From the NCBI GenBank assembly GCA_001871195.1, contig MNXA01000024.1, positions 1-47,805 of the forward strand: DNA of 47,805 nt, in the 5' to 3' direction. A model generated the notes under the pieces. The model ran no database searches and was not told where the DNA came from. It saw only the letters and a program-made list of their open reading frames with translations. The translations under genes and the position numbers were made by a program. The stretch comes from Zetaproteobacteria bacterium CG1_02_55_237 (GTDB taxonomy: Bacteria > Pseudomonadota > Zetaproteobacteria > Mariprofundales > Mariprofundaceae). Shown one piece after another: positions 2,166 through 32,595 of this stretch. Position 1 is the stretch's first letter. Every line of letters begins with the position of its first letter.

Positions 2166-4139
2166 CTTCACCGAGGTGGTGGAGGTGGCTGTATGACCGT
2201 TCTGATCATCCACCGTCAGTGTTACCTGAGTGGTCCCCAGCGGGAAGGAAGCTGTCGGACTCACACCCGAAGCAGAGCCACCGCTCCACGACCAGCTATA
2301 GAGCAGCGCGTCGCCATCAGGGTCGGTAGATGCACCACCATTCAGCGTGGCATTGGCACTGGCTGCGCCCGTGCATTCCACAGTCTGCGCCACACCTGCA
2401 TTGGCTGTCGGTGCCTTGTTCGATGGTACACCCGGCGGGGTATCGAAGCCGCCCGGGATGGACAGGCGAATCATCGTCCAGCCACCGGTAGTCGAACCAT
2501 CATCGTAGCGCGTTTGGTTCTGTGTCATGTAAAATGCACCATCAGGACCGACGGTGGACAGATCGCCATAGCCTCCCGCGTGGTACGCAACAATCACCTC
2601 GGACGCGGTACCGGTAAAGCCCGGTCCGGTGAAATCAAAGCGTGAGACTGAACCGTCGGTATTGCCCGTGTACAGCGAGCCGCCACCGAAGGCCATGCCG
2701 TCCGGATTGGCGGTGCCTATGTAACCGCGGACATTAACGCGGTTGATCTCGTTGCCATTGGGATCAATGATAACAACCTGCTGTTTGTATCTAGAGGCCA
2801 GGGCGATGTAATCGCCAGCAGGCGTCGAGACGGTCGTCAAATCATCAATGAGGTTGCTTTCGGTGAAAATCTGGACATCGGTACCATTCGCCGGGTTATA
2901 CATCCACACGGTGTTGTTGACCTCGCGTACGATGCGACCGTCCGACAGCGTACCGATACCGTAATGGTATCCGTAACCCCTTTGTGCCGTGCCATATGAA
3001 GTACAAACCCAGTAAGAACCGTACCACCAACTGTATGCCCAATACCCAGTCGCACAATACGAATAGGAGTACGTCGCACCGACGCGAGTGGCAGCCCAAG
3101 TGTTTGGGTCCACCTTATACAGGCCTTCAGGTGAGTTGGCATACAGGAAGCCGTCCGTACCGTTGGTCATACCGTGGCCGGCCGGAAGGCCCGGAACGTT
3201 ATGAATGATATCCCGGTTAAACATGTCAGTTCCCCGGGTATTGAAGCTCTGGGTCGCGCTGTACTCGACAATCTGACCGTTTGCACGGCGCAGCATTCTG
3301 CCGTCTGCTGTCCAGGCAGTACCGAGGCCGCCGTAGTTGTAATCCACGATGTCCTGCTGCAGCTCGGGATCGATCAGCTCGAAATGCTGGCTGGGCGAAT
3401 TGGTCGACTGAACCGCAGGCACCAGGCACTGGGCAGTACTTCCGGCCACGCGGGCGACTTCGCAATCGGCCAGCGCCCGGGCATATATCTTCACCTCATC
3501 GATACCGCCGCTATACCAATACGGGGACTGCCCTGCCGGCGCCCCACCACCGATACGCACAGGCTGGTTGCCGGACACGACGGCGCCGGTAACAGGTAGC
3601 GAGCCATCCAGCGCGCCGTTAACGAAAAGCTTCACCGTTGCGCCATCATAGGTCATCGCAACATGGTATTGGCCACCGGTTGCCCAGGTACCATTACCCA
3701 TGAGCGTATGCAGGCCTGTGGTCGTCCCGATGGAAAGCCAGAAATGGCTATTGTAAAAGGTCAGTTGATACTGGCGCCCACCTGCATTTTCACCGTCCTT
3801 GGTAACAATATCGCCAGTCGACGTAGATGGCTGGACGAAGGCGCTGATGGTGAGAGACGTCGATGGATTCAGCGAAGCCGCATCGGGAACCACAACATTC
3901 TGATCGACGCCGTTGAAGTTCAGGCCTGTGTTTACATGACCGGGGCCAAAGGTCGCGCCGCCGTTGATGGCGCCCGTATTGCCGTTGCCGGACACATCGT
4001 TGGCCACGATGCCCACACCCTCATCGAAAGTCCAGTAAGCGGCCAGGCCGTCGTTCAGGCCGGCGTTCGCCGTGCCTGCCATGGTGAATGGCAGCAGAGC
4101 TGCCGCGAAGAAACCTAAAAGCTTGCGTTTGATGTTCAT
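1..4139 (-). CDS. Giant secreted LamG / propeller-like / PKD / HYR-repeat protein, 3' end outside window
   Basis: Only the first 1,379 codons are present; the frame stays open from the ATG at 4139 to base 1. A signal peptide (about residues 1–26, ending TANA) is followed by a LamG jelly-roll domain (about 27–220, starting LNDGLAAYWTFDEG and closing GGIDEVKIYARAL). Next is a region of about 340 residues with propeller-like repeats, then a PKD-like domain (about 570–660, KAPTANAG), then at least nine HYR/Ig-like repeats of about 75–83 residues beginning DTTAPVLTVPA. Residues about 361–379 form a Tyr/Trp-rich stretch between two cysteines. The ribosome site AAGGGGAAC lies inside the end of the upstream gene, only 2 bp away, so the two are co-transcribed. 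Likely a surface or matrix adhesin; the substrate is unknown. The sorting signal, if any, lies off the window. Domain names rest on visual recognition. Confidence 0.85.
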   Translation of the reverse strand, partial: MNIKRKLLGFFAAALLPFTMAGTANAGLNDGLAAYWTFDEGVGIVANDVSGNGNTGAINGGATFGPGHVNTGLNFNGVDQNVVVPDAASLNPSTSLTISAFVQPSTSTGDIVTKDGENAGGRQYQLTFYNSHFWLSIGTTTGLHTLMGNGTWATGGQYHVAMTYDGATVKLFVNGALDGSLPVTGAVVSGNQPVRIGGGAPAGQSPYWYSGGIDEVKIYARALADCEVARVAGSTAQCLVPAVQSTNSPSQHFELIDPELQQDIVDYNYGGLGTAWTADGRMLRRANGQIVEYSATQSFNTRGTDMFNRDIIHNVPGLPAGHGMTNGTDGFLYANSPEGLYKVDPNTWAATRVGATYSYSYCATGYWAYSWWYGSYWVCTSYGTAQRGYGYHYGIGTLSDGRIVREVNNTVWMYNPANGTDVQIFTESNLIDDLTTVSTPAGDYIALASRYKQQVVIIDPNGNEINRVNVRGYIGTANPDGMAFGGGSLYTGNTDGSVSRFDFTGPGFTGTASEVIVAYHAGGYGDLSTVGPDGAFYMTQNQTRYDDGSTTGGWTMIRLSIPGGFDTPPGVPSNKAPTANAGVAQTVECTGAASANATLNGGASTDPDGDALLYSWSWSGGSASGVSPTASFPLGTTQVTLTVDDQNGHTATSTTSVKVQDTTPPTVNAGPDVVLEATGPSGTLFDLMAQVTTSDNCCSPNVQVINSPPYNLGVTTVTVRATDCSGNTASDTMLVTVQDTTPPLLAVPANVSIEANGVLSTVDLGVALASDLFNPVTISNDAPATFPLGTSTVTYTATDHNGLTTTGTQTVTVVDTTAPALTLPANVTAEATGILTPVTIGAATATDIFNVTVTSDAPALFGLGDTTVNWTATDANGNVSTGTQTVTVADTTAPVLTVPGNVSIEANGVLSTVDLGVATATDIFGATVANDAPATFGLGTTVVTYTATDGNGLTSTGTQTVTVQDTIAPVLTVPADYTTEARGLITFIPKGAVGRATATDATSVKIALMGAGHFNKQGFSLGTTPVTWVATDMGGNVTEGIQNIIVVDTTAPVLTVPADVSIEANGVLSSVNLGVAKAKDIFAVTITNDAPATGFPVGTTAVTWTATDANGNATTGTQNVTVADSTAPVLTVPADVSVEANGVLSTVSIGSATATDIFAVTVTSDAPATYALGTTVVTWTATDANGNATTGTQNVTVVDTTAPVLTVPADVSVEANGVLSTVDLGVATATDIFGATVVNDAPATFPLGSTTVTYTATDGNGLTTTATQTVTVVDTTAPVLTVPADVSVEANAVMSTVAIGNATATDIFAVTITSDAPATYALGTTVVTWTATDANGNATSGTQNVTVVDTTAPVLTVPADVSVEANAVMSTVAIGNATA

Positions 4140-17972: not shown

Positions 17973-18632
17973 TCAGGAACCAACCTCGCCCGCCTGCTGA
18001 GACAGGAAAAAACCATCCGCACGTTGCTGCACCTCATCCATACCCTTCTGCACACGTGCCAGCGCCTCATCCATATCGTCATCCGAAGCAATGAAAAGCG
18101 GCTCGCCGTACACAAACACGCCGCGCGAAAAAGGCTGTGGAATGTAGAAGCGATCCCATGAGTTGGCCCGCCAGCAACGACTGGTGGCCCAGCAAATCGG
18201 CATCACCGGCAGGCCAGATTTCATAGCCAGTTGAATTGTGCCCTTCTGGACCACTTCGCGCGGTCCTTTCGGCCCGTCGGGCGTAATGCCGAGATGGCGC
18301 CGTTCATTTTTCACGGCGCGCAGCATTTTAAGCATGGCACGTGCACCACCACGGGTGGTTGAGCCGCGGACCGTATCCACACCGCACAGATTTAAAGTAT
18401 CTGAGATAAACCCACCGTCGCGATGCTCTGAGATCAACATATAGCCGTGCCATTTCGGGGTGATGCGCAACAGCATCAAAAGGCGGGCATGCCAGAAGGC
18501 ATGAATGCAGCGCTGGCTATCCTCAGGCCGATAGGGCACGCCGACGTCCTGCCAGCGAATGCTATAGCGTAAGAAAAGGTAAGCGATTCTGATCAGGCGC
18601 GGCACCAGCCAGATAACAAACCTGTCCTGCAA
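17973..18632 (-). CDS. DUF374 lysophospholipid acyltransferase-like protein
   Basis: 219 residues from a TTG at 18632; the start is uncertain because the nearest purine-rich site (GGGGGAGGG) is about 16 bases away. DUF374 features are seen: a hydrophobic N-terminus, SEHRDGGFIS, VRGSTTRGGARAML, GITPDGPKGPRE and LAMKSGLPVMPI. DUF374 includes LpxJ, a secondary lipid A acyltransferase described in epsilonproteobacteria. Its place just after msbA supports a role in lipid A or phospholipid acylation at the inner membrane. Last gene of the export operon. Confidence 0.85.
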   Translation of the reverse strand: MQDRFVIWLVPRLIRIAYLFLRYSIRWQDVGVPYRPEDSQRCIHAFWHARLLMLLRITPKWHGYMLISEHRDGGFISDTLNLCGVDTVRGSTTRGGARAMLKMLRAVKNERRHLGITPDGPKGPREVVQKGTIQLAMKSGLPVMPICWATSRCWRANSWDRFYIPQPFSRGVFVYGEPLFIASDDDMDEALARVQKGMDEVQQRADGFFLSQQAGEVGS

Positions 18633-18644
18633 GGAAAGGCTGAT

Positions 18645-20459
18645 TCAGCCCTCCCCCGCCGGGGATGCTTGTGCTTCGGAATCCGCTTCCGCCTGCACAT
18701 CCTGCTGCGCTTCCAATTGGGATTCGAACTGCATGTGATACAGCTCGCCGTACAGCCCACCCCGGACAATCAGCTCATCGTGCGTGCCGATCTGCGCCAC
18801 ATTTCCACCCTCCAGCACGACGATGCGGCTGGCATGCCGGATGGTGGAAAGCCGATGCGCAATCACGATCACCGTCCGACCATGCATCAGCCTATCAATC
18901 GCCTGCTGCACCAGACGCTCGGATTCTGTATCCAGCGCGCTGGTCGCCTCATCGAGAATCAGGATCGGCGCGTCCTTGAGCAGTGCGCGGGCCAAGGACA
19001 AGCGTTGCCTCTGCCCACCGGAGAGAATCACGCCGCGCTCACCAACCAGCGTGTCGTAGCCTTCCGGCAGCGCTGTAATGAAATCATGCGCATTGGCCGC
19101 TTTCGCCACAGCCTCGATATCCTTCTGCCGCGAGGCGTCCAGACCGTAGGCGATATTGTTTCTCACTGTATCGTTAAACAGCACGATTTCCTGCGTCACC
19201 ATGGCCATCTGGCTGCGTAGCGAAGCCTGGGTAAGCCTGCGCACATCCTGCCCGTCGATCAGCACAGCTCCACCGGACACATCCATAAAGCGCGGTACCA
19301 GATTAACCAGTGAAGTTTTGCCTGCACCACTGCGCCCCACCAGTGCCACGACTTCGCCCCGCATCACCTCAAAACTTACATCTCGCAGGACAGGCGCATC
19401 AGTATTGGGATATTGCAGGCCGACACGGTCAAAACAAACGCTGCGCGAAAAATCATTCAGAATCTTGGCATCAGCAGCATCTTCCACGGCGACCCGTTCA
19501 TCGAGAATATCAAACAAGCGCTCGGCAGCGGCCAAGCCCTGCTGAATTTCATTATTCGCCCTTGAGAGTCGCTTCACCGGTTCATACAACATTATCAGCG
19601 CAGCCAGAAAGGAAACCAGCGTACCGGCTGTGGTCTGCCCGGAAGCCACCCGCATGCCCCCATAAAGCAGGACGCCGGCAATACCGAAACCGGCGAGCAG
19701 CTCCATGATAGGGAAAGACAATGCCTGCACGCGAATCATACGCAACTGGTGGAAAAGGAAATCGCCGGTCAGCCGACGGAAACGACTGCGCTCATAATCT
19801 TCCATGCCGAAAGCCTTGACCACACGGATACCACCGACCGTTTCCTCCACCAGACTGGACATCTCTCCCATCGATACCTGTCCGTCGAAGCTGGCATGGC
19901 GCATGCGTTTTCCGAAACGGGCAATCGGGTATATCACCAGCGGGAATACCAGCATGGCAATCACGGCCAGCATCCATTCCTGATAAAACACCACGCCGAG
20001 AAGAAAAACGATGCTGACCGAATCGCGCATCAGCGCCGTCACCGAAGTGCTGACTGCAGCCTGCACCAGCGTCACATCGTAGGATATGCGGGCCAGCATC
20101 TCGCCCACCTTGCGATGTGCAAAAAACTCCAGCGACTGGTAGGTCAGCTGATCGTAAATGCGATTGCGCAAATCATAAATCACCCGCTGGCCGACATGCC
20201 CCATGAGCGTGGCCTGACCGTAGTAGGCCACGCCCTTGATGATATAAAGCACAATCACCAACAGTGGAATCAGATATATCAGCTCCGGATTCTTGCCCGA
20301 CAGCGCCTCATCCAGCGCAGGCTGCAAGGCCCATGCCGTTGCCGCAGTACAGGCAGCAAGAATCACCATGCATCCCATGGCAAGCGCAACACGCCCGCGA
20401 TAGGGCTTAAGAAATTCCAGAAGACGAAGGTAAAGCTGCATGGAAGTCGGCTTGCTCAT
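18645..20459 (-). CDS. msbA: MsbA-type lipid A flippase (ABC permease–ATPase)
   Basis: 604 residues, a half-transporter that dimerises. About residues 20–320 contain six membrane helices; about 345–585 hold the ATPase with Walker A (GRSGAGKTSL), signature LSGGQRQRLSLARALLKDAP, Walker B ILILDEATSALD and the switch histidine in VIAHRLSTI. It flips lipid A-core across the inner membrane at the expense of ATP. The start overlaps the amidase stop by four bases. Unusually it sits inside a polysaccharide export operon, so transport of another lipid-linked glycan is also possible. Confidence 0.92.
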   Translation of the reverse strand: MSKPTSMQLYLRLLEFLKPYRGRVALAMGCMVILAACTAATAWALQPALDEALSGKNPELIYLIPLLVIVLYIIKGVAYYGQATLMGHVGQRVIYDLRNRIYDQLTYQSLEFFAHRKVGEMLARISYDVTLVQAAVSTSVTALMRDSVSIVFLLGVVFYQEWMLAVIAMLVFPLVIYPIARFGKRMRHASFDGQVSMGEMSSLVEETVGGIRVVKAFGMEDYERSRFRRLTGDFLFHQLRMIRVQALSFPIMELLAGFGIAGVLLYGGMRVASGQTTAGTLVSFLAALIMLYEPVKRLSRANNEIQQGLAAAERLFDILDERVAVEDAADAKILNDFSRSVCFDRVGLQYPNTDAPVLRDVSFEVMRGEVVALVGRSGAGKTSLVNLVPRFMDVSGGAVLIDGQDVRRLTQASLRSQMAMVTQEIVLFNDTVRNNIAYGLDASRQKDIEAVAKAANAHDFITALPEGYDTLVGERGVILSGGQRQRLSLARALLKDAPILILDEATSALDTESERLVQQAIDRLMHGRTVIVIAHRLSTIRHASRIVVLEGGNVAQIGTHDELIVRGGLYGELYHMQFESQLEAQQDVQAEADSEAQASPAGEG

Positions 20460-21688
20460 GTCGTCGGCTGCCCGGGGGATGTGCGGCGCAGCGCAGAACG
20501 ATCCCCGCTCCTGCTCTGACCGATCTGCGTAGGCGGCAGCCTCCCCTGCTCTTTCAGGAAGGTGCGGCTGGCATCAAGCAGTGCGGCAGCCAAGCGATCC
20601 TGATGCGCTGGGCTGCGCAACAGGCGTTCCCGATCAGGATTGGAGATATAATCCAGTTCCACCAGTACGCTGGGTATTTCGGCTGCCGTGAGCACGACAA
20701 ATCGGGCGTGTTTGGGGGCATCGTATTTCACCGGTCCGACCTGACCGATGTGCCTGATAATCTGCTCAGCCAGCATCTCGGCACTATTAAGGCTGTCACG
20801 CTTGATCAGATCAGCAAGAATGCTTTGCACCAGCGGGTCCTCGACCTCTCCTGGCATCACACCACCCACCGCATCGGAACTGTTTTCTTTCTTTGCCAAG
20901 AGCGCCGCAACCCGATCGGAAGCACCCTTCTCCGATAAGGTATATACGCTTGCGCCGGAAACCTTACGCTGTTTTACCGCATCGGCATGGATGCTGATCA
21001 TCAGATCTGCCTTGGCCGCGCGGGCTATAGCCACTCGCTTCTTAAGGGCCAGAAAATAATCACCTCGCCGGGTCAGCACGGCCCGCATGCCGGGTGTTTT
21101 ATTAATGGATTCGGCAAAGCGCAAGGCTACAGCCAGGGTGATATCCTTCTCCCGGATACGATGCGGCCCGGAAGCACCGGGATCCTCCCCGCCATGCCCG
21201 GCATCTACAGCAATCACAATCGTCTTTTGTTTGGCTTCAGAGGCCCGCGCAACCACCTTCTTCTCCTCATCGACCGAACGCATCAGATCAATGACCAGAC
21301 GATAGGGCTTACCCTGCATGGGCTTGAGCAAAAAAGAGCGAATCTGCACCTTTTCCCGCACATCCATCACCAGCCGCAGGGTGCCGGGATTGGGTTTGCC
21401 GTAGCGCACCGCAGCCAGCACCGGATCATTCTTTTCAAAACCATCGAGGCTGGCGCGCAATTCAGCACCTTTGATATCCACCACCACTCGCTCAGGGTTA
21501 GGCAGGCTATAGGCACGGTATTCGACCCCTGCACTCAGGTCGAGAACTGCCCGGGTATGGTCGGGAGCCGTCCAGAAGCGCGCCTCCTTGATAAGCGGAG
21601 TCGCAGCAAAACTGATAGAAACGCCGCCTGCCATCAGACAGAGAACAAGCAAAATGGTGGAATATATAGCCCTATGCATAAGGTTCAC
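20456..21688 (-). CDS. amiC: N-acetylmuramoyl-L-alanine amidase (AmiC-like)
   Basis: About 410 residues; GTG at 21688 overlaps the upstream stop (GTGA), and an ATG at 21679 is an alternative. A signal peptide ends SFAATP. An AMIN domain (about 33–140, EARFWTAPDHTRAVLDLSAG) is followed by an Amidase_3 zinc domain (about 155–385: DAGHGGEDPGASG, RIREKDITLAVA, MISIHADA, VELDYISNPDRE). It cleaves the amide bond between MurNAc and the stem peptide in the periplasm. AmiC-type enzymes normally separate daughter cells; here it is locked between an O-antigen ligase-like gene and msbA, suggesting local wall opening for the export machine. Confidence 0.93.
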   Translation of the reverse strand: MNLMHRAIYSTILLVLCLMAGGVSISFAATPLIKEARFWTAPDHTRAVLDLSAGVEYRAYSLPNPERVVVDIKGAELRASLDGFEKNDPVLAAVRYGKPNPGTLRLVMDVREKVQIRSFLLKPMQGKPYRLVIDLMRSVDEEKKVVARASEAKQKTIVIAVDAGHGGEDPGASGPHRIREKDITLAVALRFAESINKTPGMRAVLTRRGDYFLALKKRVAIARAAKADLMISIHADAVKQRKVSGASVYTLSEKGASDRVAALLAKKENSSDAVGGVMPGEVEDPLVQSILADLIKRDSLNSAEMLAEQIIRHIGQVGPVKYDAPKHARFVVLTAAEIPSVLVELDYISNPDRERLLRSPAHQDRLAAALLDASRTFLKEQGRLPPTQIGQSRSGDRSALRRTSPGQPTT

Positions 21689-23133
21689 ACCCGAACTGCA
21701 TCAACAGGCTCATCGCCTTTGGTCTGTGCTTCAGATTCGGCTTCACGTTCCTGATCCTGCTCCTGAATCAGCAAAGCCGCCACCAGCAAACCAAGCAAAA
21801 TCATTAGCGGCTCCATAATACGCACGATAATAAAGGTATTGGAACCAAGGGCATGAAACAACAGGCCACCAAAACCACATAGTACCCCCAGCGACATTCC
21901 CCGCATACGCTCATCACTTAAATGACGATGGCATATCTTGAGCAATACCCACATGCGCCGCACCCACCAGAGAAACATAATCAGACCAATGATCCCGGTC
22001 TCTGAAAGAACACGCGGATATTGCGCATCCATAAACCTGCCTCCGGTCACACCAACGCCAAGCAAAGGATGCCGGGGCAGATCTATAGTAATCACTTTCA
22101 CCCAGGCTTCGAGGCGTTCGCTGGTTGAGGTATCAATGCGCGCCCCTGCCAGCGCAATCTGCCCTGCTTCTTCAGGCTGCTCGAAGGTAAACATCACCCT
22201 GTCTACAATGTTTTTAGGTACGATAAAGGGTGCCAGACTCAAGGCGGCCAGACAAAGCCCGACCAACAGGCGTTTGTGATCAGAGAATATAATAAACAGC
22301 ACGATCATCATCAAGAAAGCCAGATATGATGTTCTTGATTCGGTAAAGGCGAGCGGAATCAAGATCAGCATCAATAAGGCTCCCCAATACCAGCGTTTAG
22401 CCGAATCGACCTCATAAAGAAACATACCCATAACCACTGAGAACATCAGCACCAGATATCCACCAAAGGAGTTGGGCTCTCCCATCTCACCCTCAAACGG
22501 GGCAGATACTCGCTCTCCACCCGGTATCTGCGCAATTCCCAACAGGCAAACGACAACGCAGGTGAATAGCATGACATTCATATAACGATGAATAGCTTCC
22601 TTATCGTGAATCTGATTGATGATCATGTAGAACAGCACAAAATATTCGAGATACTTTAGCACAAAGAAGAAACCGTACAGACCAACGCGTCCGGAATAAA
22701 ATCCGGCCACCGTCGCCAAAACAGTAATCAAAAAATACCAGGCAATGGGCTGATTAATGGGCGTATTGCGCACCGCGCCCAGTTCCTTGTACACCGCCAT
22801 GCGGAACATCCAAGTGAGACAAATGACCGTAAGCTGCAAATCGTCCAGCCTGAGCGTCACACCTCGCGAGGATGTGGCTGTATCGGCTCCAGTAATTGCA
22901 TCGCCGCCGAATTGAAGCTCCGGAGAAAGCAAAGTGGACAATATCAGCAAATACAATGTTAGTTCGACACTGGTAAATGCCACCAAAGCGACCATCAGAG
23001 AGGCAGATACCAGCAATCCCAGACGCATCGGTTCAGGCGCAATCGCATACGCTGCCAGCAAGAGAAGTGTCGTCGAAACCAGCGTGAGCAACACAGCGGG
23101 AGGAACGTGCACACGAATGGTTAGTGATCTCAT
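21685..23133 (-). CDS. O-antigen ligase/polymerase-like membrane protein
   Basis: 482 residues with about ten to twelve hydrophobic helices, such as VPPAVLLTLVSTTLLLLAAY and LYGFFFVLKYLEYFVLFYMI. A large periplasmic loop (about 300–375) carries the Wzy_C-type stretch ERLEAWVKVI...HPLLGVGVTGG. The polar C-terminal tail is rich in Glu and Gln. Members either polymerise repeat units (Wzy) or transfer glycans to lipid A or protein (WaaL/PglL). The coupling to Wza and Wzc homologues favours polymerase or ligase action on the exported polymer. Both ends overlap neighbours by four bases. Confidence 0.87.
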   Translation of the reverse strand: MRSLTIRVHVPPAVLLTLVSTTLLLLAAYAIAPEPMRLGLLVSASLMVALVAFTSVELTLYLLILSTLLSPELQFGGDAITGADTATSSRGVTLRLDDLQLTVICLTWMFRMAVYKELGAVRNTPINQPIAWYFLITVLATVAGFYSGRVGLYGFFFVLKYLEYFVLFYMIINQIHDKEAIHRYMNVMLFTCVVVCLLGIAQIPGGERVSAPFEGEMGEPNSFGGYLVLMFSVVMGMFLYEVDSAKRWYWGALLMLILIPLAFTESRTSYLAFLMMIVLFIIFSDHKRLLVGLCLAALSLAPFIVPKNIVDRVMFTFEQPEEAGQIALAGARIDTSTSERLEAWVKVITIDLPRHPLLGVGVTGGRFMDAQYPRVLSETGIIGLIMFLWWVRRMWVLLKICHRHLSDERMRGMSLGVLCGFGGLLFHALGSNTFIIVRIMEPLMILLGLLVAALLIQEQDQEREAESEAQTKGDEPVDAVRV

Positions 23134-23360: not shown

Positions 23361-25664
23361 CTACTTTTTAAACTTCCGCAACAGAGCATACACCTGCTCT
23401 ATCGCGTAGTTACTGACAAATTTGATTACTTTGCGGACCTCATCATTGGCTTGATCAAGCCAGTTGTCGTGCTTCCCCTTGCTGTCGCCATATGCATATG
23501 CATAGGTTTTAGAGACCTTATACTTGGAAAAATCGGGCGACAACTCGCCACGAACACCATTCAATACAATGCCTATCACTGTGCCCCCCACAGCCTCAAT
23601 CCCCGTTTTCACACGCTTCAATGCGCTGCGCACAACCGAACCTATATGGTAAACCAGCAACACGCCATCCACTTTGGTTGCCAGCACCGAGGCGTCCGTT
23701 GTATGCAGCAATGGAGGCATATCCAAAATAACCATATCGTAATCTTCGCGTGCCTGCACAAGAAACTGGTCCATCACTGGCGTCGCGAGCAAACCCGCCG
23801 GATTTGTGGCTTGTCTGCCGCATGTCATAATATCCAGCTGATCAAGACCCGGGGTCATGAGCGCCTGATCCACACCAAAATCACCCAACAGCACATCGGA
23901 TATGTGCCGCACCGCATCCTGCCAGGGAATTTGACCCAACAGGTATTCACTCAGACCAGGCTCCCGATCAAGCCCGAAAGTCTTGTGCTGCATCGGCTTA
24001 TGCATATCCCCATCAATCAACAGTACCCGAGCTCCCTGCTGCGCGTACACAATCGCCAGATTGGATGCCACCGTACTTTTGCCTTCCTGCATGGTAGAAC
24101 TGCTGACCAGAACAACGCGGTTTTCTCCCGACTTCGAAAACATTAAGTTGGTTCGCAGGCTGCGATAGGCTTCGGAAATCGTAGATGGTGGTGCAAAATG
24201 CGTTACCAGCCGTATTTGTCGCTCCAGCTCGTGTCCGCTGGTAGCAAGACCCTGCACACCTGAAAACAACTGTGCGGCCTCATCACGCGCCAAATTAGGA
24301 ACAAAGCCGACAACCGACGACCCAATATAACTCTCCACTTCCTCGATAGTCCCCACCGAGCTATCCATCGCCTCGATAATAAGTGCGATGATCAGACCTA
24401 ACACCAGTCCTAAAATAATCCCCGCCACAGCTGTCTGAGTGGTACGCGCCGGGTTTATTCGAACGTGTGAAACCAGGGCAGGCCTCACCAGACTTACTTC
24501 CTCTACCTTTTCAGCCTCTTTGATCTGCACTTCCTGAAATTTCCCTTCCAGGACCGTGTACAATTGCTCGTTGGTGACGACCTGACGTTCCAGTCGGCGC
24601 ATTAATAGTTCCTGCTCGGGCACATCACGGTAGCGCAGCGCAGTCTCTTCCATGCTCTGCTGTATATTGACCATTCTCAACTTAATCTGTGCAGCTTGCT
24701 TTTTCAGCTCATCCACCATACTGACCAAAACATCATTACCCTGGGTTTGCAAATCTTTAATCGCGGGGTGCTCATCCGTGAAATCGGTCGCAAGCTCGGT
24801 CCGCTTCACGGCCATCGCAACCAGCCTGGCATTCAACTGGGTAAAGTATGGGCTAACCGGATCATCAACCGATACCGGCTTGTAGTCCCACGGCCCCTTA
24901 TTCATACGCTCCTGAAGCTTGGTCATGGCAAACTCGACTATATTCAGTTGCAAGGCCTGTTTCCTGTATTGATCCTCCTGCTCGGATCCAATTCTGGACA
25001 AGGCGGCCGACCCTCGCCCCGCCATCAGGGATTTGTTTTCCTCGCGAAAAGTACGCACTGCGTCCTCAGCCTTTTTCAGGCGATCGCTTACTACCTTAAG
25101 CTGCAACTGAATAAATCGCTTGGCCTCGGTGACACGCTTGTTCTTCTCCTCGATATTAAGCTGGCGAAACTCCTCGGCGACAGTCTGCGCCAGATCACGG
25201 GCAAACTCAGGGCTGCCCGAGGTGGTTGTGATATTAATAATGCCGCTTGCACCTTCCTGTTTGGCCTCAATATTATTTTTGAGACCGAGAATCTTATCCA
25301 TATAGACGGCATTTTTACGAATATCGGCATCCGACAAATTCTCGGGAATCATCCCCATGCGCCGGGCCACCCTTTCCATGAGAAAATAGGATTTAATCAG
25401 TGCAAGCTGGGTACCCATGTCATCCACAGCGCTGAAGGCAATGCTTTGCATCATCAGCCCGGTCATATCCGTTGATTTTTCTATCCTCACCGAGGTATTG
25501 GAGGAATATAGTGCCGGTGGCTGGTTCATCCAGGTGAACAACCAGCTAAAACTCCCCAGTGCAAGCGCGCAAAACAGGATCACTTCGCGTCGACGAAGGA
25601 TAATATTCCAGTATTCCTCCAGATTCAGTTCATAACTGGCGGTTGTGCTGATCGGGTTTGCCAT
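23361..25664 (-). CDS. Wzc-type polysaccharide co-polymerase and BY-kinase
   Basis: 767 residues. A Wzz-like chain-length domain with first membrane helix (about 27–47) is followed by long periplasmic helices (about 170–400), a second helix (about 408–430, AVAGIILGLVLGLIIALIIE) and a cytoplasmic tyrosine kinase: Walker A SSSTMQEGKST (about 520), Walker A' LLIDGDMHKP (about 548), Walker B VILDMPPLL (about 645). A short C-terminal tyrosine cluster (YKVSKTYAYAYGD) is the likely autophosphorylation site and is followed by a basic tail. It sets polymer length and gates Wza-type export. It begins one base after the Wza-fusion stop. No partner phosphatase gene is present in the window. Confidence 0.92.
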   Translation of the reverse strand: MANPISTTASYELNLEEYWNIILRRREVILFCALALGSFSWLFTWMNQPPALYSSNTSVRIEKSTDMTGLMMQSIAFSAVDDMGTQLALIKSYFLMERVARRMGMIPENLSDADIRKNAVYMDKILGLKNNIEAKQEGASGIINITTTSGSPEFARDLAQTVAEEFRQLNIEEKNKRVTEAKRFIQLQLKVVSDRLKKAEDAVRTFREENKSLMAGRGSAALSRIGSEQEDQYRKQALQLNIVEFAMTKLQERMNKGPWDYKPVSVDDPVSPYFTQLNARLVAMAVKRTELATDFTDEHPAIKDLQTQGNDVLVSMVDELKKQAAQIKLRMVNIQQSMEETALRYRDVPEQELLMRRLERQVVTNEQLYTVLEGKFQEVQIKEAEKVEEVSLVRPALVSHVRINPARTTQTAVAGIILGLVLGLIIALIIEAMDSSVGTIEEVESYIGSSVVGFVPNLARDEAAQLFSGVQGLATSGHELERQIRLVTHFAPPSTISEAYRSLRTNLMFSKSGENRVVLVSSSTMQEGKSTVASNLAIVYAQQGARVLLIDGDMHKPMQHKTFGLDREPGLSEYLLGQIPWQDAVRHISDVLLGDFGVDQALMTPGLDQLDIMTCGRQATNPAGLLATPVMDQFLVQAREDYDMVILDMPPLLHTTDASVLATKVDGVLLVYHIGSVVRSALKRVKTGIEAVGGTVIGIVLNGVRGELSPDFSKYKVSKTYAYAYGDSKGKHDNWLDQANDEVRKVIKFVSNYAIEQVYALLRKFKK

Positions 25665-25665
25665 A

Positions 25666-28311
25666 TTATTTTAGAATTGCCGTCGTGCCGCCGCCAACCA
25701 ATGCCTTGTTCGCGAGGCGAATACTTTGCGACTGAGAAACCGCGTTCATCGGCTTGAATAACAGCAAGTCCAACGATGGTGAAATATTCTTGATAAACTG
25801 ATTCCAGTTCCCGATCGGGCTGCGTGGGACAATAATGACGTCCCTGTCGTTCAATGCCAGATTCTGAGTCAAATCACCCTCCTCCAGTAAACGGTCAAAG
25901 GCGACAGGCATGATCAGCGGCTTGTCACGATCAGCGCGAATCACGCGAATATCCGGATAGTATACATTTTCGCCAAAGCCACCTGTTTTGGAAATCGCAT
26001 CCAGAAGACGGAAATCACCCGTAAACTCTACAATTCCCGGCGTTTTCACCTCTCCCAGCACATACACCCGGCGCCCGGCCTGCTCCAATGATGGAACAAA
26101 AACTGTATCACCATCATTGATAATAGCGTTCTCCCGCCAGTCCGCCTGCTGAATCGCACGCTCCAGGTTCAATTTAACCACCTTGCCACCACGAATAATC
26201 TGAACCTGCGTCATATCAGCTTTCTCGGTTGGGCCACCCGTTCGAGAGATGAAATCAACCAGTGTTTCCTTACCTTGGAGAGGGTAAGTTCCCGGTCCGG
26301 TCGGCTGTCTCTGCAAATCCCTGATCTGGCCAAAAATAGTGGCATTTTTGCTTTTATACTTGAGAATATTCACATCCACTCGCGGATGGCGCACGTAACG
26401 CAACAAGGTTTTGGTCATGAACTCATCGATCTCGGTCGGCGTCATATCATTGATATTCACCCCCTCGAAGAAAGGCAGAGATATCGTGCCATCAACACCC
26501 ACCGTAACCTTGTGCACTTCCGGCTTGGAGCCTTGCCACATGGTAATGGAGACCTCATCGCCGGGACCAACCCGATATTCAGGAACACCATTGATCGTTT
26601 TAAATGCTGCATTTTCATCAATATTAAACATATCCCTTTCAACCCGTGCCCCTTTGGTCAGAGGCAAGCGGACTGACATCAACGGATAGGCCTGCACCCA
26701 TGCGCTACGATTCTGCTGCAGGGCTTCTTCACTCACGCCTGGCGGCATAGGGTCTTTATCGCCCAAGCCCTGCACTTTAATCCTATCGGCAGCAACGCCC
26801 TGCTCACGCAACACGGCACTTGCCGCCTCGGCCCGAGCCAGGGAAAGCGCTTCATTATTGGGGAAAACCTCACTGTGTATTGAACGGGCATCAGCCTTGC
26901 CGGAAATGCGGAAATAAAGATCCTTGGGCTTGTCTCCAAGTGTTTTGAGCCACTCGGACATGGCCTTTGCATCAGCCCCACTCACATTCGCCAGTGCCGT
27001 ATCAAAATGTACCTTCAGCGGCTCGCCCAGTGGCTCCCCGACAAACTCTTGCACAGGCTCCTGCTCCGCACTCTCAAAAGACCAGACCTGAACAGCGCCA
27101 TCGGTGCGCAAAGCAGCGACATCCAAAAGCCCCCGTCCATGCACATCCCCCAAATCAAGGCTGTAATACGTCCCACTGTCCGGCAACCATCCCGTCAATG
27201 GCGTGAACCCTGCCCCTCCCGACATGAAACCACCCTTCCATTGCCACAAGCCCAGGCCCCGGCCATCTTTTGATGCAGCCACCAGTTCGCGCTTGCCATC
27301 ACCATCCAGGTCGCCCACACGCAACGAACCCCAGGACCCCTCATCCACAACGGTCTGTTTAACCCAGCCGGTTTTACTACCCAGCCACAGCTCAATCCCA
27401 TGTAAATAGAGACCGGCAACGATGTCCATGCGCCCATCCCCATTCACATCCGCCACAGTCACAGATTCAGCATCGCCTGGAGCCGGAAGGTTCTCAGGCT
27501 CCCATCGCCCGGACCCATCGCCATACCAGACTTCCACACCACCGACCGTGACCCAACTCCCCCTCCATGTATCGGTCAAATGTTGTGCGCCAGCCCCGCC
27601 ACGCCGGGAAGCGACGATATCAAGATGACCATCCGCGTTGACATCAGCCACAACCAAGCCGGTAAAGATACCATTCGCCAGTGGACCGATATGCGGTTCC
27701 CAGCCGGCTTTGGCATCATTCAGCCACACATGCAGGCCGCCATCGGTTTCTGAGTTCACCTGCGCACCAATCGCATCGGGCCAACCATCTTCATTAATAT
27801 CCGCCAATACGACTTCACGGAATTGCCCGCTCTCCGTTGGGGCAATATGCGGAGCCTTCCATTCCCCACCTCGATTCAGGTGCCAAACCTGCAAGCCTTG
27901 CTGATCGCCTTCCCCGCCAATAAGAATATCCATTTCACCATCATGCTCAACATCCGCCATAGCAGCCGAACGCACCTCCATGGTGGTGCCCGGCCCCTGC
28001 TGCGAACTCCAGTTCCCAAGACCATCACCCCATTCCAACTGGAACCCGGCTTCCGGTTTCCTCAGGCCCACCAGCAAATCCACATGACCATCCTCATTCA
28101 TGTCGGCATAGCGCACAGAAAAAGCATGCCGCACGTGCTGCGGACCAATATTATGCATCGAGTATTCGGGAAAGGGCTTGTCTACATCCTTGATCGGCAT
28201 ACTGGGCTCAGGGACGGTGGTGCGACAGGAAGCGACCCCAAGTACACACACCATAGCAAGTGCGGCCAAGAGACGCCTTCCGGTTCTTCTATTCACAGGC
28301 AATATATTCAA
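25666..28311 (-). CDS. FG-GAP propeller / OmpA-like / Wza-type polysaccharide export fusion lipoprotein
   Basis: 881 residues from a TTG at 28311 (AAGGA six bases upstream). The lipobox LGVASC puts the mature lipidated Cys near 29. About 50–420 holds seven FG-GAP/EF-like motifs (ADMNEDGHVDLLVG, ADVEHDGEMDILIG, ADINEDGWPDAIGA, ADVNADGHLDIVAS, ADVNGDGRMDIVAG, GDLDGDGKRELVAA, GDVHGRGLLDVAAL), consistent with a seven-bladed calcium-binding propeller. About 430–555 is OmpA-like (HFDTALANVSG, GKADARS, LSLARAEAA). From about 575 it has a Poly_export domain (YRVGPGDEVSITMW) and two SLBB domains (near 655–745 and 748–830; VYVLGEVKTPG). Ordinary Wza is about 380 residues and lacks the first two parts. 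First gene of the tight export operon. Confidence 0.9.
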   Translation of the reverse strand: MNILPVNRRTGRRLLAALAMVCVLGVASCRTTVPEPSMPIKDVDKPFPEYSMHNIGPQHVRHAFSVRYADMNEDGHVDLLVGLRKPEAGFQLEWGDGLGNWSSQQGPGTTMEVRSAAMADVEHDGEMDILIGGEGDQQGLQVWHLNRGGEWKAPHIAPTESGQFREVVLADINEDGWPDAIGAQVNSETDGGLHVWLNDAKAGWEPHIGPLANGIFTGLVVADVNADGHLDIVASRRGGAGAQHLTDTWRGSWVTVGGVEVWYGDGSGRWEPENLPAPGDAESVTVADVNGDGRMDIVAGLYLHGIELWLGSKTGWVKQTVVDEGSWGSLRVGDLDGDGKRELVAASKDGRGLGLWQWKGGFMSGGAGFTPLTGWLPDSGTYYSLDLGDVHGRGLLDVAALRTDGAVQVWSFESAEQEPVQEFVGEPLGEPLKVHFDTALANVSGADAKAMSEWLKTLGDKPKDLYFRISGKADARSIHSEVFPNNEALSLARAEAASAVLREQGVAADRIKVQGLGDKDPMPPGVSEEALQQNRSAWVQAYPLMSVRLPLTKGARVERDMFNIDENAAFKTINGVPEYRVGPGDEVSITMWQGSKPEVHKVTVGVDGTISLPFFEGVNINDMTPTEIDEFMTKTLLRYVRHPRVDVNILKYKSKNATIFGQIRDLQRQPTGPGTYPLQGKETLVDFISRTGGPTEKADMTQVQIIRGGKVVKLNLERAIQQADWRENAIINDGDTVFVPSLEQAGRRVYVLGEVKTPGIVEFTGDFRLLDAISKTGGFGENVYYPDIRVIRADRDKPLIMPVAFDRLLEEGDLTQNLALNDRDVIIVPRSPIGNWNQFIKNISPSLDLLLFKPMNAVSQSQSIRLANKALVGGGTTAILK

Positions 28312-28498: not shown

Positions 28499-30289
28499 TC
28501 ATTCGTTAATAAAAATTTCCACACGGCGATTTTTGGCGCGTCCTTCGGCCGTATCGTTTGAGGCAATCGGATTGCTACTGCCGAATGCACCGGTTTCGAT
28601 TCTTTCAAAACCAACCCCCGCCAGAATCAGCGCGCGGACTACGGCAGTGGCGCGCTCCTGAGAAACCGCCATATTACTATCCAATGCATGCGAGGGCTCA
28701 TGTGTGTTGCCTGCATAGCCGCCCACCGGCTCGCCGTCGGAATGGCCGGCAACACGCACCTTTGCCGTTGGTGAGAGAGTCTTGGCAAATTCGTCAATCT
28801 TGCGCTGCATGGCCTTTGATACACCCCTGTGACCCGAACCGAAGAAGAGCCGCAGCTTCATGACCCAATCCTGCGACAACTGCTTGCTCGCGGGAGCAGT
28901 GGCTTGACCCCCCGCCTCCTGTGCTGCCTGCTGAGGCGCGGCACTTGCCTTGGCTTGTGAATCCTCCGGGACAGATGCTTCGACCTGCTTCCCGGAACCC
29001 ATGCCTGAAGACCCGCCGCTATTGGTCATGCGGCTATCCGGCACCGTTGCTTGAGTTGTTTGGCTTTGTCGCCCTGTCTTTTGAACAAAATTCGAGACAG
29101 CAGACTCACCGCCAGCCATCGGCTCTTCGATCTTCCTGCGGGCTTCCAGATTGTCTTTGGCAGCAACAACGGTTGCCGTTTCCGTTTGAATAGCCGCCAC
29201 ACTCTGCGCGGCCGGCTCTACCAGGGTTTCCGTCTGCACAGGCAGTTCTGTTTGTGTTAGCTCTGAAGCAGGCCCATCCGGATTTACTTGCGCAATCTGG
29301 CTCATGTGTGCGGAGAACTGCCCGGACAGAGCATCAAGCTGCTGCTTGATCGATGCGATTTCCGCACCTTGATATGAAGCCCCGGATGATGGCACCCCGG
29401 AAGCAAGTTGCGCTTCCAGCTGGGCGATACGTCCGGACATGCCTATATTCATTCCTATGGCCCCGATCGCAGCAATGATGCCAATCAGGCCAACGATCAC
29501 ACCCATGCCCATACGGGGTTTTTCCACGGCTAAAGAAGCAGGTTTGTGGGTGGAATCGCCTGAGCGATGCTTTGTAGATGACTCCGCATGCTTCTTGCTG
29601 GCATGTTCTGCCACATCATCTTTCGCCACCGTTGTTGCAGCATGCTCGGTGGAAGATTCCATATCCATCGACTCCCGGCGCTCAGGAGCAGTGGATTTTT
29701 CTTCGATAGAATCCTTATCGATGGACTGATCGGAGGCCTTCGATTCTTCCTGTTCAGACGCTTCAACATCTGCTTCTACCGCATTAACCTTGGTCAGGGC
29801 TTTATCCTGCTGGTCGGGAGCATCCGATTCGGCAATATCGCCTTCTGATGTTTCACCTTCCTCATTCGGATTCAGGGAATCGTCACTTGTTGTATTGAAG
29901 ATGTCCGGGGCTTTCTCCTCATCTTCCATATCGTCCACAAGCTCTGAGGCGGCATCGTTTTCCACTGCCTCGACATCAAGGCCTGAGGCAGCGATTGTAC
30001 CTTCAGTTTTTCCGCTTTTCAGAAGGGTTTTGGCATCATCCTTACCACCTCCGGAAGATGCCTCCGACTCCTCCTCGACAAACAAATCTTCAATGTCATC
30101 AAGTGTACTTGCCGGCTTTGGCTTCTGTTCGGTCGCACTGGAAGCAACAGGCGTATTCGCGCTTCTCTGCGTCTCCAATTCAGAGCTGTCCCCACTCTCG
30201 TCAGGAAACATTGAATCGGACGGTTCCGATGTCACCTCATCTTTCCCCTTGGGTTTCTTCGGTGATTTAGCCTTGGGTCGAACCGCCAT
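28499..30289 (-). CDS. OmpA-family, single-pass protein with long acidic cytoplasmic tail
   Basis: 596 residues from the ATG at 30289 (GGAGGAATTG ahead of it; an ATG at 30301 is less likely). Residues about 10–250 are a low-complexity acidic, Ser/Glu/Asp-rich segment, probably disordered and cytoplasmic. A membrane helix follows (about 257–280, VIVGLIGIIAAIGAIGMNIG). Then comes a coiled/Gln-rich linker and a C-terminal OmpA domain (about 490–596: VRVAGHSDGEP, VSQERATAVVRALI, NDTAEGRAKNRRVEIFINE) with the Asp and Arg positions used to bind peptidoglycan. The layout recalls MotB or ExeB/TonB-like couplers. It precedes the export operon by 187 bp and is divergent from an ExeA-like ATPase, so a structural or energising role in export is inferred. 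Confidence 0.85.
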   Translation of the reverse strand: MAVRPKAKSPKKPKGKDEVTSEPSDSMFPDESGDSSELETQRSANTPVASSATEQKPKPASTLDDIEDLFVEEESEASSGGGKDDAKTLLKSGKTEGTIAASGLDVEAVENDAASELVDDMEDEEKAPDIFNTTSDDSLNPNEEGETSEGDIAESDAPDQQDKALTKVNAVEADVEASEQEESKASDQSIDKDSIEEKSTAPERRESMDMESSTEHAATTVAKDDVAEHASKKHAESSTKHRSGDSTHKPASLAVEKPRMGMGVIVGLIGIIAAIGAIGMNIGMSGRIAQLEAQLASGVPSSGASYQGAEIASIKQQLDALSGQFSAHMSQIAQVNPDGPASELTQTELPVQTETLVEPAAQSVAAIQTETATVVAAKDNLEARRKIEEPMAGGESAVSNFVQKTGRQSQTTQATVPDSRMTNSGGSSGMGSGKQVEASVPEDSQAKASAAPQQAAQEAGGQATAPASKQLSQDWVMKLRLFFGSGHRGVSKAMQRKIDEFAKTLSPTAKVRVAGHSDGEPVGGYAGNTHEPSHALDSNMAVSQERATAVVRALILAGVGFERIETGAFGSSNPIASNDTAEGRAKNRRVEIFINE

Positions 30290-30475
30290 CAATTCCTCCA
30301 TTCACACGGAAACTAAAAAACTTTTGCCGCATACCCTACAGGCATCCCCATGCATCGGGCAAAGTGTGCAGTCAGGGACCCATTGATGGCAAGCAACATA
30401 ACTGACTGTCTGGCAAGTCAATGTGCACAAAAACGTTAATTCACCGGCGTCCGAAGCGATTGGAACTAAATGCAA

Positions 30476-30530: not shown

Positions 30531-30655
30531 TCGGCCTTAAAAGGATACCATCTTCTGAATTAGGGGCTAAAAATTTCTGAGGATTCTTTTTTCGAAACGT
30601 CCTAGCTTGAGAAGTTCGGCTGGGAAAAGAACCGTGAAGTTCAATGAGGATGAAT

Positions 30656-31465
30656 ATGTATCTTGAGTATTGGAATCTGAAGCACATGCCGTTTGAGAAC
30701 GTGCCAGACCCCAATTATTTCTACGATTCGGAAGTCCACCATCCCGCTTTTGAAGATCTGAGAGAATCCATTATGCATCGCAAGGGAGCAATCCTGCTCA
30801 CCGGCGATATTGGCTGCGGCAAAACCACCCTTACCCAACGTGTGTTGCTCTCTCTGCCGGAAAAGCGTTTCGATATTGCTTTGATTACCTACCCATGCCT
30901 CTCCCCTCTGGAAATGTTGCGTGAAATCAATCAGCAACTCGGGCTGGAGACAAAAAACTCGGGCAATGCAGGTAAAAACACCCTGTTGCATGTCCTGCAA
31001 GAACATCTGGCGGGAACTGCAGCAACCGATCGTGATACACTCATCTGTATTGATGAGGCGCAAAGCATTCCCACCCTTGAAACCTTCGAGGAGCTGCGCC
31101 TGCTGCTGAACTTTCAACTCAGCGACCGGTTTCTGCTCACCCTGTTGTTCATTGGACAACCTGAATTGAAAAACATCATTGCCAAGCTGCCGCAGCTTCG
31201 CCAGCGCATGGCTCTGCATTTGCATCTAGGTCCATTGTCCATGCAGGATACCAGTCGCTATATACTGTACCGTCTGCGGGCTGCCGGGTGTAATCGTCCC
31301 ATCCTTACCCGACAGGCCGTTGAATCCGTATACCGGCATACCGGCGGCGTGCCGCGCAGCATCAACCACCTGGCAGACCACTGTCTTCTTACTGGTATGC
31401 GCAAGGGCGTTTCCCTCATAGACAGCAACCTCGTAACAGAAACGGTAGAGAAGTATCACGTTTAA
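30656..31465 (+). CDS. ExeA/GspA-like AAA ATPase
   Basis: 269 residues from the ATG at 30656, chosen for GAGG six bases upstream; two earlier in-frame ATGs (30644, 30650) lack this. It starts MYLEYWNLKHMPFENVPDPN, like ExeA proteins. Walker A GDIGCGKTT (about residue 48), Walker B LICIDEAQ, and the sensor-like FIGQPEL and GGVPRSINHLAD are all present. Aeromonas ExeA has extra membrane and peptidoglycan-binding parts; this protein stops after the ATPase. Such stand-alone forms occur in exopolysaccharide/exosortase gene clusters. It overlaps the next gene by one base. Confidence 0.9.
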   Translation: MYLEYWNLKHMPFENVPDPNYFYDSEVHHPAFEDLRESIMHRKGAILLTGDIGCGKTTLTQRVLLSLPEKRFDIALITYPCLSPLEMLREINQQLGLETKNSGNAGKNTLLHVLQEHLAGTAATDRDTLICIDEAQSIPTLETFEELRLLLNFQLSDRFLLTLLFIGQPELKNIIAKLPQLRQRMALHLHLGPLSMQDTSRYILYRLRAAGCNRPILTRQAVESVYRHTGGVPRSINHLADHCLLTGMRKGVSLIDSNLVTETVEKYHV

Positions 31466-32595
31466 TGCCTAATTATATTGATCTACTTCGCTCCCATCAT
31501 CAGCCGGGAAAGAAAGAAACCGCAACCCCGGTGACCGAAGAGGAGCACCGCGAACTCCTGCAGGAAGAGGAAGGGTATGTAGAACCCGGGACATGGGACC
31601 CCCAGTCGGAAGCCGACCTGCTCGTGGAAGAGGATGAAAGTGCGCAGACATCTGGGAAGGGAAGCTCTGCAAAACCCACAGCGGCAACAGATGACAAACA
31701 GTGGCTGAACCATTGTGTGCACTATGTTGCCAACGTGTTCAAAACTGCCGGGGAGAACAAGCTCGGCGACACAACCATCCTTTCGGATCACGTCAAAACC
31801 TTCATTGCCTCCATACCCAATCGCCCCGATCAACTTGCCGTGCTGGAACTAATGATCAGCGAAAAAGGCACGAAAATTCAGGATCTTTATGGCGGGCTTG
31901 TAACGAAATCAATCATGCTGATGCTCTATGCCATCAAGATGGGACAGCAACTCCAGCTGGATGAGGATGAGCTGCATGCGCTGGTGATGGCCGGCATGCT
32001 ACATCACATCGGCATGGCACAAGTCCCAGCCAGCATTCGTGACAAGAAAGAAAAACTGACCAAAGATGAATTTAAACAGATCAGCCATTCTCCGAAACTG
32101 GGTGCGGAATATCTGCAGCAATGTGGCGTTAGCGACAAGCGCATTCTGAGTGCAGCCTTACAGGCCCGGGAACGCTTTGACGGATCGGGTCCGACCGGTC
32201 TGAAGGGTAATGAAATAAGCAGCACTGCCCGCATTGTCAGTCTTCTCTCTTTATTCGAAGCCCTTGTTCACTACCGCGCTTATCGCAAGCGCATGCTTCC
32301 TCGTGCGGCCATTCGTGAGATCCTCCTTAACCATAAAAAGGCTTATGATCCGGAATATCTCAAATGCCTGCTCGATGCGATTTCCTTATACCCGGTCGGC
32401 ACTTATGTCCAATTGAATTCAGGCGATATTGGTCAGGTGGTACGTGTCCACCGACGTCTTCCCCTGCGCCCTGTTGTACATATAAACATGGATCGCCATG
32501 GCAGCAAAATAAAACCACGCGACATCGATCTGCAAACTCAGGCAAACCTGATTGTGGAACGGTGCATGTATCCCGAAGACCTTAAGGATTTATAA
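31465..32595 (+). CDS. Degenerate HD-GYP domain protein
   Basis: 376 residues. The N-terminal 85 residues are acidic and low complexity. About 90–330 resembles an HD-GYP domain, but the catalytic signatures are altered: HDIGK is HHIGMAQVP, the HHE before the DG is replaced (AALQARERFDGSG), and the GYP motif reads GPTGLKG. Metal binding and c-di-GMP hydrolysis are therefore doubtful, so it may act as a binding or signalling partner. The C-terminus (PVGTYVQLNSGDIGQVVRVH) matches the usual HD-GYP tail. It is translationally coupled to the ExeA-like ATPase (TAATG). Confidence 0.85.
   Translation: MPNYIDLLRSHHQPGKKETATPVTEEEHRELLQEEEGYVEPGTWDPQSEADLLVEEDESAQTSGKGSSAKPTAATDDKQWLNHCVHYVANVFKTAGENKLGDTTILSDHVKTFIASIPNRPDQLAVLELMISEKGTKIQDLYGGLVTKSIMLMLYAIKMGQQLQLDEDELHALVMAGMLHHIGMAQVPASIRDKKEKLTKDEFKQISHSPKLGAEYLQQCGVSDKRILSAALQARERFDGSGPTGLKGNEISSTARIVSLLSLFEALVHYRAYRKRMLPRAAIREILLNHKKAYDPEYLKCLLDAISLYPVGTYVQLNSGDIGQVVRVHRRLPLRPVVHINMDRHGSKIKPRDIDLQTQANLIVERCMYPEDLKDL

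Follow-up and report, generated by a model that had tools for sequence, protein, structure and literature searches.

The window analysed here is a 47,805-nucleotide stretch of DNA from Zetaproteobacteria bacterium CG1_02_55_237 (contig MNXA01000024.1). On its minus strand, positions 25666 to 28311 form one open frame of 881 codons without internal stops, which starts at a TTG codon with an AAGGA Shine-Dalgarno sequence about 7 nucleotides ahead of it. The product is a lipoprotein in which an FG-GAP propeller, an OmpA_C-type domain and a Wza-like OPX part follow one another on one chain (hereafter, the OPX fusion). The preliminary description had proposed both the 881-residue lipoprotein at this position, without giving its strand, and its three-part composition; both were confirmed, and profile matches, fold and key residues together identify every segment. 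The chain begins with a signal peptide (28225–28311, minus strand) ending in the lipobox VASC, and Cys29 is predicted to be lipidated. As expected of an OPX protein with its lipoprotein signal, Cys29 was found to be unchanged in the alignment of 16 orthologues, and a lipobox is also present in those orthologues whose N-terminus is intact.

The propeller occupies residues ~50–412 (27076–28164, minus strand). Pfam FG-GAP_3 matches it in five stretches above the curated cut-off (121.9 bits, 1.6e-35), and seven FG-GAP units were counted by eye and in the alignment, in agreement with the seven motifs originally noticed. Calcium-type loops (Dx[ND]xDGxxD or DxDxDG) lie at residues 70, 120, 171, 223, 288 and 334, and the seventh loop (residues 389–397, DVHGRGLLD) is degenerate; some of the other loops vary too. 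Binding of Ca2+ is therefore predicted from the loop motifs for six of the seven blades. The AlphaFold strands form a propeller fold, with pLDDT mostly 80–93, and Foldseek matched the propeller to CRTAC1, LGI1 and integrin, with a Photorhabdus lectin also among the fold matches. Two genomes, G007 and G039, have orthologues of greater length (930 and 905 residues; loci L015 and L020), that of G007 carrying an insertion of ~30 residues within the propeller.

The OmpA_C-type domain follows at residues ~426–545 (26677–27036, minus strand). Pfam OmpA matches residues 447–535 with 38.5 bits against a cut-off of 27.2 (1.5e-9), and the closest matches of the domain are YiaD and PomB. Conserved aspartate and arginine residues of OmpA_C domains contact diaminopimelate, roles assigned in Acinetobacter OmpA. 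The corresponding D474 and R493 were found in all 14 OmpA-bearing orthologues among the 16 aligned (Pfam, E <= 0.001), and their spacing and the insertion between them are PomB-like. The OmpA-like nature of this region, suspected earlier, was thus borne out by profile, fold and the D474/R493 pair, and peptidoglycan binding is predicted from these residues. In two members of the window's own genus (G001 and G002) the OmpA domain is missing and the propeller is joined almost directly to D1, the rest being kept. The anchor can therefore be lost, and wall anchoring is not indispensable.

A linker (residues 546–576; 26584–26676, minus strand), modelled with low confidence (pLDDT below 50 at residues 546–567 and 570–573), connects the OmpA domain to the Wza-like part. 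This part begins with a Poly_export domain, equivalent to Wza D1 or PES (residues 577–649; 26365–26583, minus strand; 61.8 bits against a Pfam cut-off of 28), the only Poly_export match in the window's genome. Two SLBB domains follow, the first at residues ~656–740 (26092–26346, minus strand; Pfam SLBB/SLBB_2) and the second at residues 748–828 (25828–26070, minus strand; Pfam SLBB_2), together matched by SLBB_2 in two stretches at 81 bits, above the curated cut-off, so that the domain set expected of OPX proteins is present. Alignment with Wza spans residues 577–848, up to the C-terminal helix, and supports the Poly_export and double-SLBB region as first described. The last segment, a Wza-type helix with the motif NWNxFI..PS (residues 834–872; 25696–25812, minus strand), is a putative outer-membrane pore helix; it aligns with the Wza segment PVSRWNRLINQLLPT. 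AlphaFold places helices at 836–852 and 857–872. However, an unbroken barrel of helices is uncertain, because the Pfam Wza_C model matches only 2 of the 16 orthologues and a conserved proline breaks the C-terminal helix; hydrophobic moments computed for the helices were not decisive.

The AlphaFold model of the whole chain, built from 16 orthologues, has a mean pLDDT of 77.8. It contains a confident propeller, an OmpA-type fold and a Wza-type C-terminal half, with low confidence in the linker (546–573). Its pTM of only 0.50 means that the relative placement of the domains is not fixed by the model. The best Foldseek match was Wza (E 4e-20).

Could the three parts have been brought together by an assembly chimera or a frameshift joining neighbouring genes? 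A joint near position 27000 had been named as a concern. Orthologues with the same domain order, at 64% down to 37% identity, read through this region in one frame in dozens of independent assemblies, including a genome from a singleton sister class; this excludes such a joint and leaves an artefact with a negligible probability. FG-GAP, Poly_export and SLBB matches were found in all 16 aligned orthologues, one of them from the singleton class. dN/dS was 0.05–0.09 for the propeller, 0.01–0.12 for the OmpA domain and ~0.02–0.03 for the OPX part, indicative of purifying selection on all three. The fusion was matched in 39 of 78 genomes of the class Zetaproteobacteria, some with the gene cut by contig ends, and the OmpA domain is missing from two of them (G001 and G002). 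Outside the class, 398 genomes sampled evenly from the phylum gave a single full-length match, G041, from the singleton class. A scan of a genome collection returned mostly unrelated FG-GAP proteins and three full-length matches. The domain order, which the preliminary description had proposed to seek in other genomes, thus belongs to a lineage-wide family rather than a one-off: the OPX fusion is a real, conserved, lineage-specific gene family. A divergent full-length homologue of 30% identity (L034, 181–2955) was also seen on a contig of 38% GC from a MAG that bears the doubtful label Maribacter.

OPX proteins are usually described as consisting of D1 and SLBB-type domains, plus a pore helix in class 1. 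Two papers on OPX structural classes (PMC9603273, PMC9601211) do not mention OmpA or FG-GAP parts. Searches of the open literature on FG-GAP in connection with polysaccharide export or Poly_export, and on OmpA or peptidoglycan binding in connection with Wza, returned nothing relevant. The variant with a propeller and an OmpA domain is apparently undescribed in the open literature searched.

The OPX fusion is the first of six co-oriented genes on the minus strand. A Wzc-like polysaccharide co-polymerase (PCP) with a BY-kinase follows after a 1-bp gap (23361–25664; matches to NCBIfam Wzc, TIGR01007, TIGR03007 and TIGR03018), and then come a Wzy_C polymerase or O-antigen ligase-like protein (21685–23133; Pfam Wzy_C), an AmiC-type N-acetylmuramoyl-L-alanine amidase with AMIN and Amidase_3 domains (20456–21688), an MsbA-type ABC exporter (18645–20459) and a DUF374 protein (17973–18632). 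The wzy, amiC and msbA genes overlap by 4 bp each, and all five downstream genes are syntenic in relatives. The order OPX-PCP-Wzy is held in 16 of 17 loci, and the PCP gene, whose linkage is typical of OPX proteins, adjoins the OPX gene here as at every other syntenic locus examined but L034, where a Wzy_C-like gene follows the fusion homologue directly on a 4.5-kb contig. AmiC comes next wherever the contig extends that far, except in G041 and in Ghiorsea, where no amidase adjoins the operon; the order OPX-PCP-Wzy-AmiC-MsbA is conserved in most relatives outside Ghiorsea. No glycosyltransferase was found in the operon, and two initiating glycosyltransferases lie elsewhere in the window's genome. 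In G002, the OPX, PCP and Wzy proteins are 40–58% identical to those of the window, as against 82–91% for the flanking DUF374, MsbA and AmiC proteins, so that this three-gene cassette was either replaced by exchange or subject to rapid divergence. At L133 (G002) and L138 (G001) alike, the OPX-PCP-Wzy cassette has no OmpA domain and is strongly diverged between flanks of far higher identity, which suggests cassette exchange at the fusion site.

On the other side of the OPX fusion, a divergent pair of syntenic plus-strand genes encodes an XrtA-associated-type AAA ATPase (30644–31465; TIGR03015-like, below the curated cut-off) and an HD-GYP protein of the c-di-GMP phosphodiesterase type (31465–32595). 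Between the OPX fusion and the ATPase gene lies, in this genome only among the loci compared, a gene for a 600-residue protein (28499–30301, minus strand) whose N-terminus is long and acidic and which has a single apparent transmembrane segment and an OmpA domain at its C-terminus, a putative second wall-binding protein inserted at the locus. At the contig end, a gene for a large secreted protein (3–4139, minus strand), which starts with a LamG-like part and contains numerous HYR-like repeats in 225-bp tandem units, runs off the sequence. XrtA/PEP-CTERM loci supply some of the best NCBIfam resemblances of the OPX, PCP and ATPase proteins (TIGR03027, TIGR03007, TIGR03018, TIGR03015). However, all these matches fall under the curated cut-offs, and no match to exosortase PF09721 was found in the window's genome, which is rated 99.99% complete; the ATPase gene thus occurs in a genome without an exosortase match. 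Because of this absence, membership of the fusion operon in an XrtA/PEP-CTERM exopolysaccharide system was rejected, leaving a resemblance only.

Taken together, the OPX fusion is probably the class-1 OPX channel of a Wzx/Wzy-type exopolysaccharide exporter, anchored to the wall and carrying a periplasmic propeller. Lipidated Cys29 would hold the chain to the outer membrane at its inner leaflet. Rings of Poly_export and SLBB domains would assemble into a Wza-like octamer above the adjacent Wzc-like kinase, with the C-terminal helices lining an outer-membrane pore. Each protomer would hold, between its lipid and the ring, a seven-bladed, Ca2+-stabilised propeller in the periplasm together with a MotB/PomB-like OmpA domain. 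The amidase of the operon may first open the peptidoglycan mesh, after which the OmpA domains would grip the surrounding peptidoglycan and hold the channel in place in the wall. The PomB-like sequence, insertion and D474/R493 pair of these domains suggest a stator-like anchor, with up to eight grips on the extruding channel. The propeller is the weakest step of this mechanism; our best guess is a Ca2+-stabilised docking platform for partner proteins or handling of the nascent glycan.

The N-terminal half could instead be exposed on the cell surface as a lipoprotein lectin or adhesin and hold the exported polymer there, with the OmpA-like domain as a spacer rather than a wall anchor. FG-GAP-type propellers are known in lectins and integrins, the Photorhabdus lectin is among the fold matches, and the two congeners without the OmpA domain retain their propellers. 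However, the aspartate and arginine expected for diaminopimelate binding occur in all 14 OmpA-bearing members, which argues for a periplasmic place, and D1, which must be periplasmic, is reached by a linker of only ~30 residues. Since propeller and OmpA domain both lie between the lipid anchor and D1, and D1 and the wall are both periplasmic, the propeller is periplasmic rather than a surface adhesin if the OmpA domain binds the wall. The surface lectin or adhesin is accordingly considered unlikely.

What is most informative lies outside 25666–28311: the operon with its amidase, and the alternation of this operon with the sfz stalk cluster at one site. The sfz cluster lies upstream of amiC-msbA in six Mariprofundus-type genomes, and most fusion-bearing genomes have the OPX operon at this site; G008 and G021 have neither there. 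Genus g9 (Mariprofundus by inference) has a complete sfz cluster that agrees with the published one of Mariprofundus; its genes encode BcsB-like, MshEN-GT2, glycoside hydrolase and SH3-CotH proteins and are followed by genes for an ATP/ADP carrier, a mannose-P enzyme, AmiC and MsbA. No Sfz2 homologue was matched in the window's genome (G000). Among the 78 genomes, 38 have the fusion alone, 19 Sfz2 alone, one (G038) both and 20 neither, and several genera are without either system. This exclusivity is strong per genome (Fisher p=3e-6) but vanishes per genus (p=1.0). Sfz being almost restricted to one genus, the alternation is clade-driven and its statistical weight small, and it was rejected as independent statistical evidence. 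The positional coincidence at amiC-msbA is the stronger fact. Two genomes (G027 and G087) have two Sfz2 copies each, ~66–82% identical to the query, possibly marking a second stalk cluster.

Does the operon then replace sfz functionally, as matrix exporter for iron-oxide sheaths or similar structures in Zetaproteobacteria without stalks? This proposal, compatible with the wall-anchored exporter, draws on the shared site and on the co-occurrence of both systems in only one of 78 genomes. Iron-oxide sheaths of 1 um have been attributed to the population of the Ghiorsea MAG AMOR20_M1306; no sfz homologue was found in Ghiorsea MAGs, and a different mechanism was inferred (PMC10734525). The fusion operon is present in this MAG (L032), its protein being identical to that of G075 (genus g8, which like g9 belongs to the window's family). 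However, cultured Ghiorsea was reported to form amorphous particles only and no sheaths (PMC10734525), yet 15 of the 16 Ghiorsea genomes of the set carry the gene, which is thus unlikely to suffice for sheaths. The Ghiorsea operon does not adjoin amiC, several genera have neither system, and the alternation is not significant per genus. A sheath exporter is therefore a speculative proposal of low probability. Equally speculative is its extension to the class, in which Zetaproteobacteria would use one of two unrelated matrix exporters, often at one site: sfz for the twisted stalks and dreads of Mariprofundus, or elsewhere the wall-anchored propeller-OPX system, which would export the organic template on which sheaths and further iron-oxide structures other than stalks form.

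Zetaproteobacterial iron-oxide structures are discussed as biosignatures. Through its same-site alternation with the stalk cluster, the fusion offers a defined gene that can be tested for a part in the unexplained structures formed without sfz, and its operon is a candidate, open to test, for the system that builds the extracellular matrix in iron bacteria lacking stalks. If the reading is true, a channel that brings along a wall anchor on the same chain would directly illustrate how an envelope-spanning exporter is fixed against the load of polymer extrusion, like flagellar stators.

What distinguishes the OPX fusion from known systems? Wza has an N-terminal lipid anchor and docks on Wzc. A continuous Wza-Wzc channel has been reported (PMC12881504). 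Like the class-1 OPX protein Wza (PDB 2j58, 9r60, 26gs), the fusion is a lipoprotein with a Poly_export D1, two SLBB domains, a C-terminal W-N-x-F/L-I helix and a Wzc-like BY-kinase as partner. However, D1 starts from about residue 63–84 in Wza chains, whereas ~550 residues precede it in the fusion, and the extra stretch of ~520 residues between lipid and D1 holds the propeller and the OmpA_C domain. The propeller shares seven repeats, Dx[ND]xDGxxD loops and fold with the FG-GAP/integrin-alpha-like propellers of CRTAC1, integrin alpha and LGI1, but is bacterial, probably periplasmic and joined to an export channel. The OmpA_C domain has the fold, the D474/R493 equivalents and the PomB-like insertion between them in common with PomB/MotB and YiaD, but here belongs to an outer-membrane exporter, whereas theirs are part of a flagellar stator or of a small lipoprotein. 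Finally, the operon shares with the sfz twisted-stalk cluster (Koeksoy 2021, PMC8250860) its chromosomal site by amiC-msbA, its occurrence in related genera and a proposed role in exopolysaccharide export. Homology of the two was rejected, the flank being common and the core genes not: sfz is of the synthase type (BcsB-like Sfz1, GT2 Sfz2) and shares none of the OPX-PCP-Wzy core genes.
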